Below are positions 2,945 through 40,106 of a stretch of DNA of 40,106 nt, piece by piece. The notes beneath the pieces are model-generated. The model had not been told where the DNA came from, did no database searches, and was given only the letters and a program-made list of their open reading frames with translations. How positions within the stretch are numbered: the stretch's first letter is position 1; each line of letters begins with the position of its first letter. The stretch comes from Gammaproteobacteria bacterium (GTDB lineage Bacteria > Pseudomonadota > Gammaproteobacteria > SZUA-140). The stretch covers positions 1-40,106 of the forward strand of contig WFNO01000115.1 of the NCBI GenBank assembly GCA_015488555.1, given 5' to 3'. The translations under genes and the position numbers were made by a program.

Positions 2945-3298
2945 CTATTTCACCAGCGAATGGATGCTGGCCGCGATGCCGTAACGGCCTTCTTCCGCGG
3001 CCACCGTCGCATCCACCCGTACCACCTCCACGATGGCCTTGAAGGGAGGGATGGAGAGCGTGCCCGGCTGGATCTTCACTTCGATGAAGCTGCCCACTGC
3101 CAGTGGTTCATCCGCCAGGAACATCAAACCGTTGCCGCTGATGTTCTTGGCCACGCCCTGCCGTTCCTCTCCAGCCTCCATCCCTCCTGGGCCGGCACCC
3201 GTGCGGGATTCTCGACCGGCGACCTCCACCCCCCGATACGTGATCCCGCAATCGATGGTCATCCTGGGGTATTTGCGGTTTTCCGCTACCTTGAACAT
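2945..3298 (-). CDS. PilZ domain protein
   Basis: A small (117 aa) single-domain PilZ protein, a likely c-di-GMP receptor. It shows the N-terminal RxxxR motif as RKYPR at residues 8-12 and the second motif as AKNISGNGLMF (usual form D/NxSxxG), followed by beta-strand-rich sequence typical of the PilZ barrel. The start at MFKVAENRKYPR is supported by GAGGAGGT 5 nt upstream; the 37 extra residues in the track's ORF are not needed. It lies between trxB and aat on the same strand. The output target cannot be told from the sequence. A diguanylate cyclase is encoded 33 kb away in the same window, but no direct link is shown. Confidence 0.88.
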   Translation of the reverse strand: MFKVAENRKYPRMTIDCGITYRGVEVAGRESRTGAGPGGMEAGEERQGVAKNISGNGLMFLADEPLAVGSFIEVKIQPGTLSIPPFKAIVEVVRVDATVAAEEGRYGIAASIHSLVK

Positions 3299-3359
3299 GT
3301 GACCTCCTCCCCCCATCTTCATGCAGCCTCCATGCCAGTCCTTCTCCGGCCATACCCCT

Positions 3360-5605
<2,246 letters not shown>

Positions 5606-5719: not shown

Positions 5720-8071
5720 TTGGCCCAAGCCACACGCAGAAAGAATCCCCCCGCCACCCCCGTGAAACCCCTGCACGGCCTGCGGGAAGGGGCATTGTTG
5801 ATCAGCGGGGCCATCGCCCTCTACATGCTCCTGTCGCTGTTCACGTACAGCCCTTCCGATCCCGGCTGGTCCTACAGCGCCACTTCCGAGGAGATCCACA
5901 ATGCAGGGGGCCTGGTGGGCGCCTGGTTCGCCTCCCTGTTCCTGTTCTACTTCGGTTACCTGGCCTATCTCTTCCCCTTCATGGTGGTCTATGCGAGCTG
6001 GGTGTTCTATCGGGGACGGCGCGCGCCCGCGGCCCCTGCCCTGCGCCTGTTACTGGCCCGGGCCGGCGGGTTCCTCCTGACCCTGGCCACCGGCGCCGGA
6101 CTCGCCACCCTGCATTTCCAACAGGCCGGCGCCCTGCTGCCCACCAACCCCGGCGGTATCCTGGGCGACATCGTGGCCGACATGCTGGTAGCCCCCTTCA
6201 GCTTCGCCGGCGCCACCTTGTTCCTGCTGGCCTTGTTTCTCACCGGCATCTCCCTGCTCACGGGCCTGTCCTGGTTCGCGCTCATGGACCGCACCGGGCG
6301 CCTGACCCTCACGGCCGCGGCCTGGATCTCCGCCCGTCTGGCCGCCCTGCGCCAGCGACGGCAGGAACGCAAGGCCGCCCGCCAATCCCGCCAGCGCCGC
6401 GCCGAAGCGGTCAAGACCGAAAAGATCAAGCAGGTCAGCCGGCCCAAACCGCGCATCGAACCCGTGATCAAGACCCTGGAGCCCGGCACCCGGGTGGACA
6501 AGGAACGCCAGGTCCCGCTCTTCACCTCTCCGGCCGACGGCGACTTGCCGCCCCTGGCCCTGCTGGACGAACCCGAGGCCACGCCCCACACCATCTCCGA
6601 GGAGACCCTGCAGGCCATCTCCCGGCAGGTGGAACTCAAACTCCAGGACTTCGGCGTGGAGGTGCAGGTGGTGGCCGTCCATCCCGGCCCGGTGATCACC
6701 CGCTATGAACTGCAACCGGCCCCCGGCGTGAAAGTCAGCCAGATCAGCAATCTGGCCAAGGACCTGGCGCGTGCCCTGTCCGCCATCAGCGTGCGCATCG
6801 TGGACGTGATTCCGGGCAAGTCCGTCATCGGCCTGGAGATCCCCAACGAACACCGCGAGATCGTGCGCCTGCGGGAAATCCTGCAGTCCAGGGACTACGA
6901 GCAAAGCCGCGCCACCATCCCACTCGCCCTGGGCAAGGACATCAGTGGCCACCCGGTGGTGGTGGACCTGGTGAAGATGCCCCACCTGCTCATCGCCGGT
7001 ACCACCGGTTCCGGCAAGTCGGTGGCCATCAACGCCATGCTGCTGAGCATGCTCTACAGTGCCTCGCCCCGGGACATGCGCCTCATCATGATCGACCCCA
7101 AGATGCTGGAGCTGTCCATCTACGAGGGCATTCCCCACCTGCTGGCGCCGGTGGTCACCGACATGAAGGAGGCCGCCAACGCCCTGCGCTGGTGTGTGGG
7201 GGAGATGGAGCGCCGCTACCGGCTCATGGCCCATCTGGGCGTGCGCAACATCCACAACTACAACCGCAAGGTGCGGGCGGCGGCGGAGGCCGGCCGGCCC
7301 ATTCCCGACCCCTTCGCCCGGCCGCCCGCCGCCGAGGAGGCCGGCGGCGAAGAAGGCGGGGAGGCGGACACCGGCAGCGCCACCCCGGTGTTGCAGGAAC
7401 TGCCCTACATCGTGGTCATCGTGGACGAACTGGCGGACATGATGATGATGGTGGGCAAGAAAGTGGAACAGCTCATCGCCCGCCTGGCGCAGAAGGCCCG
7501 GGCCTCGGGCATCCACTTGATCCTGGCCACGCAACGGCCCTCGGTGGACGTGATCACCGGCCTCATCAAAGCCAACATTCCCACCCGCATCGCCTTCCAG
7601 GTCTCCTCCAAGGTGGATTCCCGCACCATTCTCGACCAGATGGGCGCCGAACAACTGCTGGGCCACGGGGACATGCTCTATCTACCGGCGGGCACCAGCG
7701 TGCCCACCCGGGTCCACGGGGCCTTCGTGGACGATCACGAGGTCCACAAGGTGGTGGACTTCCTCAAGCAGGCGGGCGAACCGGAGTATCTGGATCAGGT
7801 ACTGGCCGGCGCCGAGAGTGAGGAGACCCTCCTGCCCGGAGAGCGGGGCGGCGCGGGGGAGGGCGAGAGCGACGCCCTCTACGACCAGGCGGTGCGCATC
7901 GTCACCGAGACCCGGCGGGCCTCCATCTCGGGCATCCAGCGCCGCCTCAAGATCGGCTACAACCGCGCCGCCCGGCTCATCGAGGAGATGGAGCGGGCGG
8001 GCATCGTGGGCCCCATGGAGGCCAACGGTTCGCGCGAGGTCCTGGCGCCGCCCCCGCCTCCCGCGGACTGA
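5720..8071 (+). CDS. ftsK: DNA translocase FtsK
   Basis: Septal DNA pump that clears chromosome dimers and activates XerCD at dif. The 783-aa protein has an N-terminal membrane region of about four helices (residues ~27-180), a basic linker, then the motor. The motor carries Walker A GTTGSGKS near residue 427 and Walker [14 protein letters not shown] near 565. The C-terminal gamma winged helix ([22 protein letters not shown]) reads KOPS. The linker is short compared with E. coli (about 1330 aa). A Gly/Glu-rich insert ([14 protein letters not shown]) lies before Walker B. I prefer the TTG at 5720 (protein then begins [10 protein letters not shown]) because GAGAGGA lies 7 nt upstream; the track's GTG at 5669 has no such site. 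lolA follows after 5 nt. Confidence 0.95.
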
Positions 8072-35445: not shown

Positions 35446-36411
35446 TTAGACGGCTTCTTTATAGAGACACCATTGATTGCGCCCGCCATGCTTGGCCTGG
35501 TAGAGGGCCTTGTCCGCACATTCTATCCACTGCACTGGCCCCTCCATGAATTCCGCCAATTCAGCGATCCCGGAACTTATGGTCCAACGAACGGAGCCCT
35601 GTTCACAGTCCAGGGTCTGGCTGGCCATCCGGCGCCGCAGACGCTCGGCTACCAGTTGTGCCTCTTTGGCATTGGTGTCCACCAGGATCAGGCAGAATTC
35701 CTCGCCCCCATAGCGCGCAGCAATGTCGGTATCGCGGATGGATGTACGTACCACCCCGGCGGTGGCCTGGAGAATAGCATTACCGATCTGGTGACCATAC
35801 GTGTCGTTGATCTTCTTGAAATGATCAATATCGAACATAAGTAGCGTACAAGGCTGAAAGGTACGCCGGCTGCGCTTGAATTCCCGCTCCAAACATTCTT
35901 CGAAATAGGCACGATTGAAAAGCTGTGTCAAATGATCCGTACGGTTGAGTCGCTCCAGGCGCTGATTGGCCTCCTGCAGATCCAGTTTGTGCACCGCGGT
36001 ATCGGTGACGTCGTAGAGGATCAACCCCAGATGACTGACCTCCCCTCCCAGTGACAGCAGAGGCACGAAGGTGACATTCTGGTACATGTGAGCCGCGGTA
36101 CCGGTGATGGGCCGGTAGTTCTTGAAGCGGAATAGAAACGGACGCTGTTCCCAGGTCACGAAGGCACGACAGCCGAGCTGGAAAACGGGTTCCGCTTTGC
36201 GCTGAAACCAGCTCCGGGGGATGTCCGGAAAGAGTTCGAACAGGGAATGGCCGATCACATCGCTCGGGCGCCGGCCGCTATGATTCTCCATGAAACTGTT
36301 CCAGATCTGGATGCGATAGTCCCGGTCAAGGACCACCAGTCCCACATCCAGTGCCTGAAGCAAGTGGATGAACCAGTGCATCTCGCGAATGTCGATCTTG
36401 CCGGTCTCCAT
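35446..36411 (-). CDS. PAS-GGDEF diguanylate cyclase
   Basis: Makes c-di-GMP from two GTP. The 321-aa soluble protein has an N-terminal PAS-like domain (~10-130; LLQALDVGLVVLDRDYRIQIWN), a short coiled linker (LDLQEANQRLERLNRTDHLTQL) and a GGDEF domain (~160-315). The domain contains LLMFDIDHFKKINDTYGH, the active site RYGGEEF and, five residues before it, RDTD, an intact RxxD inhibitory site. So it should be active and product-inhibited. It starts 3 nt after the response-regulator gene, so the two form one operon and the regulator may control this enzyme. The PAS ligand is unknown. Confidence 0.93.
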   Translation of the reverse strand: METGKIDIREMHWFIHLLQALDVGLVVLDRDYRIQIWNSFMENHSGRRPSDVIGHSLFELFPDIPRSWFQRKAEPVFQLGCRAFVTWEQRPFLFRFKNYRPITGTAAHMYQNVTFVPLLSLGGEVSHLGLILYDVTDTAVHKLDLQEANQRLERLNRTDHLTQLFNRAYFEECLEREFKRSRRTFQPCTLLMFDIDHFKKINDTYGHQIGNAILQATAGVVRTSIRDTDIAARYGGEEFCLILVDTNAKEAQLVAERLRRRMASQTLDCEQGSVRWTISSGIAELAEFMEGPVQWIECADKALYQAKHGGRNQWCLYKEAV

Positions 36412-36414
36412 GCT

Positions 36415-37404
36415 TCACCCCATCACGCAAGAGACACATTCGTTCAGAGACGGACGGGAGTCCTCTGTGAACAGGAGCAACAGATCGCAGTTGATCTCGT
36501 GACGCTCGATCTTGCAACCCATTTCTATGGCCAATGTCTGCTGCCAGCGTCGGGCATCGTTGCGCAACAGGTCTTTGACCTGCACGTGCCTTCCCAGCAA
36601 TTGGGGTGGTCCCTGGCTAAAGCTGAGATCCACTTGTTCGGCAATACCCTTGAGACAGGCGCTGATGAGGATACTGGCGATGTCCATGAGCAACTCCACT
36701 TGCAACGCTTCGTTGAGGGGACCTTCCTGCTTCAAGAGCCGGGCGATGTCGCGCATGCTGGACTCGTTGAAGATCAATAGCGCTTCGCCGGCCACCCCCG
36801 GGGCGATAAATCCCTGACACACGGCGGACACCCGTTCACCACGGGCGATATCTTCCAGGGCCATCTCCAGCTCGCTGCGCGACAACATGTGGACGTTGGG
36901 AATGGGCATGACGACAAAGATGCCCAGCAGCCGTGCCAACAGATCGGCTGCACGCCCCATAGCCACGTTGGCCACCTCGCGATAGCCATCCCACAGATCC
37001 ACCGCATCGGGTTCCACGGTATCTACTTGTTGGGGCACTTCTCCCAGGCCGTACTTGTCGATGACTGCTGCCACGTGCTCCGGGCGAACGGGTTTCTTCA
37101 GGAAATCCAGGGCCCCCAGCTGCAGCACCCGCTTGTGGGCCTCGGGCTGGATATCCCCAGAAACGACGAAAACCATGGTTGGCAGGTCCTCCCGGCGAAT
37201 GATTTCCAGTACCTGGTAGCCATCCATCTCTGGCATATTGAGATCGAGAAATACCACTTCGCCCCGACCGGCGCGGATGGCCTCCAGGCACTCCTGGCCG
37301 TTGGCAGCGAAACTCAGAGACACTTCCCAGCCCTCGGGCAGCGCGCGAGCTATTTGCCGCCGGGCAAAGGCGGAATCGTCACAAATCAACACCGCGGTAG
37401 ACAT
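36415..37404 (-). CDS. Response regulator with CheC-like phosphatase domain
   Basis: The 329-aa protein has a receiver (1-120) with acidic DD at 9-10, phospho-acceptor D54 (FLDLNMPEMDGYQ), S82 and K104 (LKKP). A CheC-like domain follows (~135-325). The first phosphatase motif is intact: DGYREVAN followed 22 residues later by Pro (D-x3-E-x2-N-x22-P). The second copy (VELLMDIAS) has lost the Asn. This suggests a regulator able to dephosphorylate itself or a partner. The start at MSTAVLICDD is clear; the 67 extra residues in the track are not real. No histidine kinase lies nearby. The PAS-GGDEF gene follows after 3 nt. Confidence 0.9.
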   Translation of the reverse strand: MSTAVLICDDSAFARRQIARALPEGWEVSLSFAANGQECLEAIRAGRGEVVFLDLNMPEMDGYQVLEIIRREDLPTMVFVVSGDIQPEAHKRVLQLGALDFLKKPVRPEHVAAVIDKYGLGEVPQQVDTVEPDAVDLWDGYREVANVAMGRAADLLARLLGIFVVMPIPNVHMLSRSELEMALEDIARGERVSAVCQGFIAPGVAGEALLIFNESSMRDIARLLKQEGPLNEALQVELLMDIASILISACLKGIAEQVDLSFSQGPPQLLGRHVQVKDLLRNDARRWQQTLAIEMGCKIERHEINCDLLLLFTEDSRPSLNECVSCVMG

Positions 37405-39790: not shown

Positions 39791-40106
39791 TCAGCAGAAT
39801 CTATGGGTAGATTCTGGTTCAGGCAAGGCGCCAAGTGTATGATACAAAGCGATTTCCATAGCGTGATAGGTTCGAAAACCAAAGGCTTTTCTGACCGTCA
39901 GTTTTGCCTTGGCATTGAAACCCTCCACCACGCCGCTGGAAAGCTGCCCCTTGGTGCGAAACCAGTTCATCAGCAGCGGTCGATGCCTGCGCAACATCCT
40001 CGCCACTTTCTTCATCGGTTCGATCTTCGAGCGCATGGTCTTCTTACACCAACATTCCAGGAATTCACCGGCCCAGTAGGGCGACTTGTAGGTCCAGAAG
40101 AACTGG
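39791..40106 (-). CDS. ISL3 family transposase, C-terminus only (cut by the window edge)
   Basis: The frame is open to the right edge and reads FFWTYKSPYWAGEFLECWC, then RSKIEPMKKVARMLRRHRPLL, SSGVVEGFNAKAKLTVRKAFGFRTY and the end HTLGALPEPESTHRFC. These are the final ~105 residues of ISL3-family DDE transposases. The track's Met at 40036 is internal. The catalytic Asp residues lie outside the window, so whether the gene is whole cannot be said. I could not identify the element's terminal repeat between its stop and the LOG gene. Confidence 0.92.
   Translation of the reverse strand, partial: QFFWTYKSPYWAGEFLECWCKKTMRSKIEPMKKVARMLRRHRPLLMNWFRTKGQLSSGVVEGFNAKAKLTVRKAFGFRTYHAMEIALYHTLGALPEPESTHRFC

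Follow-up and report, generated by a model that had tools for sequence, protein, structure and literature searches.

A response regulator made of a receiver and a CheC-like domain (RR-CheC) and the PAS protein encoded next to it form a real and conserved pair. In a class sample of 274 genomes, which is independent of the set of named loci and of near-duplicates, the 38 strong matches to the CheC subfamily and the matches to the PAS subfamily occupy the identical 38 genomes, and the two genes are adjacent in 38 of 38, with 3–78 nt between the matched stretches. A second set of 123 loci, collected from several sources, with many named loci and including the locus studied here and a few near-duplicates, has the PAS gene immediately downstream in 122. 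The constant unit seems to be the receiver, CheC and PAS, c-di-GMP being one output among several, present in the locus studied here.

The window, that is, the whole stretch of 40,106 nucleotides that was analysed, carries the following features of the pair.

36415..37404, minus strand: RR-CheC, response regulator with a receiver (REC) and a CheC-like domain, 329 aa
37054..37404, minus strand: REC domain, residues 1-117 (Pfam PF00072 Response_reg, E=1.9e-22)
37243-37245, minus strand: codon of the phospho-acceptor Asp54, within the REC domain
36418..36999, minus strand: CheC-like domain, residues 136-329 (profile against T. maritima CheC; Foldseek)
36967..36978, minus strand: CheC motif 1 (ExxN), E143-V-A-N146, EVAN (from the sequence)
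36673..36684, minus strand: CheC motif 2, D241-I-A-S244, DIAS, a degenerate ExxN (from the sequence)
35446..36411, minus strand: predicted PAS-GGDEF diguanylate cyclase, 321 aa
35986..36384, minus strand: PAS domain of the conserved partner family, with invariant W87, M109 and Q111
35473..35940, minus strand: GGDEF domain (Pfam PF00990, E=4.3e-47)
35695..35709, minus strand: GGEEF active-site motif (from the sequence; conserved in the aligned orthologues)
35725..35736, minus strand: RxxD inhibitory site (I-site), R226-D-T-D229 (from the sequence)

The original prediction described a receiver fused to CheC and followed 3 nt later by a cyclase. Both reading frames are indeed at these positions, on the minus strand, which had not been named, and 3 nt separate the stop of RR-CheC (37404->36415) from the start of PAS-GGDEF (36411->35446). 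Full-length homologues of both genes are found across dozens of genomes, which rules out chance ORFs. The PLSDB/RefSeq labels for the two genes are merely "response regulator" and "PAS domain-containing protein".

We give about an even chance to an account in which the pair is a conserved two-protein unit. The phosphate on Asp54 of the receiver would come in trans from a kinase with its gene elsewhere, a CheA being the likeliest, and the fused CheC domain would shorten the lifetime of the phosphate via its single intact ExxN motif. The receiver-CheC protein would act in a complex with the co-translated PAS protein, and the state of this complex would set the local c-di-GMP through the GGDEF domain of the PAS protein, intact in this organism. 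Within this account, we infer from the sequences and the gene order the phosphorylation by CheA, the phosphatase activity on the own receiver, the binding between PAS and CheC, and the control of the cyclase.

The receiver has the complete set of phosphotransfer residues, that is, the acidic pair D9 and D10, the phospho-acceptor D54, S82 at the Ser/Thr position, and the lysine K104. This quintet is nearly invariant among the orthologues, and the receiver Asp is retained in 100 of 102 fused proteins. Three orthologues (L012-L014, from genomes G017-G019) have damaged receivers: the acidic pair is altered in all three, and two have Ala or Ser in place of Asp54, although CheC motif 1 and the PAS-GGDEF partner are intact. 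These receivers, as well as 26 loci with no GGDEF domain, are counted as evidence against the account given above. The same three genomes also hold a second operon of the structure CheY-CheC-PAS-histidine kinase (L015-L017), and the two kinds of operons look as if the work were divided between them. A search of the own genome with RR-CheC yielded paralogues matching the receiver alone.

Among close relatives of this receiver are two stand-alone CheY proteins (L125 and L126, about 6001-6370), whose loci have no CheC or PAS gene. Both lie near a lytic transglycosylase-like gene and an apparent prolyl-tRNA synthetase gene.

The CheC-like domain was said in the original prediction to have an intact first phosphatase motif and a degenerate second one. 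In the profile alignment EVAN corresponds to the first EIGN of T. maritima CheC and DIAS to the second, and the description stands. RR-CheC therefore lacks the double ExxN of Thermotoga CheC, its second motif being DIAS. The single RR-CheC sequence stays below the Pfam CheC/CheX cut-off (13.6 bits for CheX, versus 27), and 19–23 of 27 relatives match these models at E<=1. A profile built from the 27 relatives and compared with PDB retrieved Thermotoga CheC with E=6e-12, and FliY was also matched. The AlphaFold model of RR-CheC (pLDDT 87.6, pTM 0.80, with the linker 123-129 poorly predicted) has 2f9z, 1xkr, 3qta and 4hyn as its best Foldseek matches in PDB, these being CheC, haloarchaeal CheC-like and FliY structures. 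The Pfam CheC model finds no other CheC paralogue in the own genome.

Motif 1 retains both its E and its N in all 123 loci, in fused and split forms. At motif 2, D is present in 118 of 123, and the fourth residue is N (about half), S or T in most. Two prolines of the domain are conserved as well, P169, which is the characteristic proline after the ExxN motif, in 122 and P267 in all 123 loci. An alternative is that the CheC domain serves for docking and has no catalytic role, with motif 2 decayed and motif 1 kept for structure or binding. The loss of ExxN at motif 2 in most members and the position of the window protein below the Pfam cut-offs would agree with that; however, the invariance of motif 1 in both gene arrangements speaks against it, and so does the fact that a single ExxN motif suffices in CheX. 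We consider a docking role quite unlikely.

Another locus (L203, genome G002, 1949-2989) has a CheY gene followed by a highly divergent CheC-like gene, with no PAS gene, near a gene resembling a pilus/secretion ATPase. This CheC-like gene possibly represents a second, distinct CheC lineage in the family.

The arrangement of the pair is tight: the median intergenic gap is 2 nt, 112 of 121 gaps are between -20 and 30 nt, and 34 pairs overlap by 1 or 4 nt. The class sample has 17 other, weaker CheC matches, with no such PAS gene adjoining them. Beyond genus-level synteny, no further conserved neighbour of the pair was seen. That two unrelated signalling genes are neighbours by accident is thus extremely improbable, as it is refuted by the reciprocal adjacency over many families with no other gene conserved nearby, and we found no point in its support. 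Conserved co-occurrence and retention of the catalytic residues in orthologues had both been named as checks of the original prediction. The first holds in both directions, and the second is borne out by motif 1 and the receiver Asp.

The PAS-GGDEF protein has a PAS_4 domain (Pfam E=2.5e-9) and, as predicted, intact active and inhibitory sites, since both GGEEF and RxxD are present; R and D of the I-site are invariant in 27 of 27 aligned orthologues. The closest solved relative of the GGDEF domain is PDB 3IGN, titled as a GGDEF domain complexed with c-di-GMP. Its identity to the GGDEF domain of the window is about 45%, and that to the cyclases of the Marinobacter pairs is 85%; the latter value supports probable c-di-GMP binding by this cyclase family.

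The receiver and CheC are fused in 102 of the 123 loci and encoded by separate adjacent genes in 21. The output domain of the partner also varies. GGDEF is present in 93 loci (76 fused, 17 split), no output domain in 26, and HisKA-HATPase in three. The bare PAS partners come from Vibrio, Salinivibrio, Aeromonas, some Pseudomonas and Alteromonadaceae; the PAS-histidine kinases, all in the split (CheY-CheC) form, are the partners in L015-L017 and belong to the same PAS family. On the tree of fused proteins, eight changes between GGDEF and none are needed, at least five of them forced on well-supported branches. Repeated loss of GGDEF would fit this tree, which leaves the direction of change unproven. 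In two loci (L094 and L100), counted among the 93, the PAS-GGDEF frames look frameshifted and REC-CheC is intact, possibly due to a recent loss of the cyclase or to a sequencing error. A long frame in G648 (L167), considered as a direct REC-CheC-PAS fusion, was rejected, as the REC-CheC ORF there has 350 aa.

Since GGDEF is missing from 26 loci and changes eight times on the tree, control of a cyclase cannot be the family-wide function. On the other hand, W87, M109 and Q111 are present in 122 of 122 PAS partner proteins, irrespective of the attached domain. As these residues are kept and the output varies, the constant unit is drawn around the receiver, CheC and PAS. Hence the original prediction, a remote phosphorelay coupled to c-di-GMP output, is supported as regards a kinase encoded elsewhere, and is not supported as regards c-di-GMP as the defining output, given 26 bare PAS and three PAS-kinase partners.

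Since some PAS partners are bare, the PAS protein must have a function that needs no effector. On a simple reading, it senses and tunes CheC, and the signal may flow in either direction. In the reversed direction, PAS would be a sensor that binds CheC and tunes the phosphatase, phosphorylation of the receiver would be the output, and GGDEF or the kinase would be an optional extra. A precedent is provided by CheD, which tunes the CheC phosphatase in Thermotoga. The pair would then be a widespread unit whose dedicated PAS protein sets the lifetime of the phospho-receiver via the tethered CheC, a PAS counterpart of CheC-CheD, where output domains were gained and lost repeatedly and the CheC partnership stayed fixed. 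In line with this, the 26 effector-less partners keep W87, M109 and Q111, and PAS and CheC are never apart in the 38 genomes, the sole non-adjacent PAS match in the class sample being an incomplete PAS-kinase gene where a contig ends. However, GGDEF is the commonest partner output (93 of 123) and its active and inhibitory sites are intact, hence it is not a decaying appendage, and no other effector of the receiver is known. We regard the reversed direction as possible and hold it only tentatively.

In the account that we prefer, with c-di-GMP set downstream of the receiver, the phosphate has to come from a kinase encoded elsewhere. The original prediction saw no kinase or chemotaxis genes nearby, which is true within the window; two CheA clusters lie elsewhere in the genome, one of them with CheZ. 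The latter, on contig C75 (L137), has the order sigma factor-CheY-CheZ-CheA-CheB; the second chemosensory cluster (L136, G000:C119) comprises genes for a STAS protein, CheY, CheA, CheW and CheR. No kinase adjoins the pair in the window, and there is no conserved kinase neighbour among the 80 named loci, which are the best 80 of 502 matches and thus biased towards close relatives. Within 6 kb, five of these 80 loci have a kinase-like ORF, three of the five being one syntenic Alteromonas gene on the opposite strand, and none of the 80 has CheA.

Nevertheless, CheA is present in 39 of 39 pair-bearing genomes of the class sample versus 138 of 235 others (Fisher p=7e-9; p=4e-7 after quality filtering), an association that may just mirror a motile lifestyle or genome size. 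Moreover, one genome (G097) has MCP, CheB and CheA genes directly after its CheY-CheC-PAS-GGDEF operon. CheA is the leading, if unproven, candidate for the donor.

The same observations would fit a different role, in which CheC acts in trans on the CheY of chemotaxis, or the receiver drains phosphate from CheA as a sink, so that the pair links c-di-GMP and PAS sensing to flagellar chemotaxis. The receiver itself points the same way, its best curated match being CheB, and CheB and CheY being among its nearest paralogues in the own genome. However, CheZ, the usual CheY phosphatase, is already encoded in this genome, and a role of RR-CheC as its chemotaxis phosphatase is unlikely. Furthermore, nearly every locus has CheC either on the same polypeptide as its receiver or in the gene next to it, as would be expected if this receiver is its target. 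The link to chemotaxis as a whole is unlikely.

REC-CheC is a published class of response regulators, and the P. syringae protein PSYR0886/PSPTO1039 is listed there as an orphan response regulator (PMC2222644). It shares the architecture, is found once per genome and, like RR-CheC, has orphan status (PMC2222644). The census context in which it appears, as far as it concerns this protein, makes no mention of a PAS partner (PMC2222644). We infer that PSYR0886 is in the same subfamily from its architecture and from the P. viridiflava and P. asturiensis members. A predicted partner of the phytochrome kinase BphP1, Psyr_0886 showed no detectable phosphorylation when tested with this kinase in vitro (PMC5654926). 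This counts against the account that we prefer, although a protein that removes its own phosphate might give an identical result. On the P. syringae genes, the literature search yielded the census and this phosphotransfer test alone.

RR-CheC shares with CheC, CheX and FliY the fold, the ExxN motif 1 and the conserved proline; it differs in being fused to a receiver, in being normally outside chemotaxis operons and in having DxxS/N as the second motif. Unlike in the CheC-CheD pair, its direct conserved partner is the PAS gene, not CheD. GGEEF and the I-site are common to the window cyclase and to PAS-GGDEF cyclases such as 3IGN (GGDEF) and PA0861 (PAS-GGDEF-EAL, 5xgd), whereas the window family is tied one-to-one to REC-CheC, has invariant W, M and Q in PAS and often has no GGDEF. 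With WspR and PleD (REC-GGDEF) it has in common a receiver input to a c-di-GMP output, but here these parts are divided between two proteins, the cyclase being on one and the receiver, joined to a phosphatase-like domain, on the other. The PAS profile matches PDB 3MXQ, "Sensor protein", over most of its length (E=6e-31); this is a sequence relative only, with 51 bits versus a Vibrio bare-PAS partner.

No published account of the REC-CheC/PAS partnership was found in a literature search mostly outside subscription journals, so that the word "unreported" is provisional. As far as this search reached, receivers with a built-in phosphatase have been catalogued but scarcely investigated. The strict link of REC-CheC to a single PAS family names its partner, points to a conserved pocket and allows natural comparisons (PAS only, PAS-GGDEF, PAS-kinase) across genetically tractable genera, for instance, Pseudomonas, Shewanella and Vibrio. 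This makes testable both the integration of signals at the dephosphorylation step and the attachment of a c-di-GMP output to an existing switch, or its dropping.

The PilZ protein that had also been predicted in the window is present at 2945-3409 on the minus strand (Pfam 28.5 bits, cut-off 22.5). It has RKYPR and NISGNG motifs, may be a c-di-GMP receptor and lies over 30 kb away from the cyclase. The window extends from the contig start to 40106, and its edge falls inside an ISL3-family transposase gene, 39791-40106 (Pfam DDE_Tnp_ISL3).
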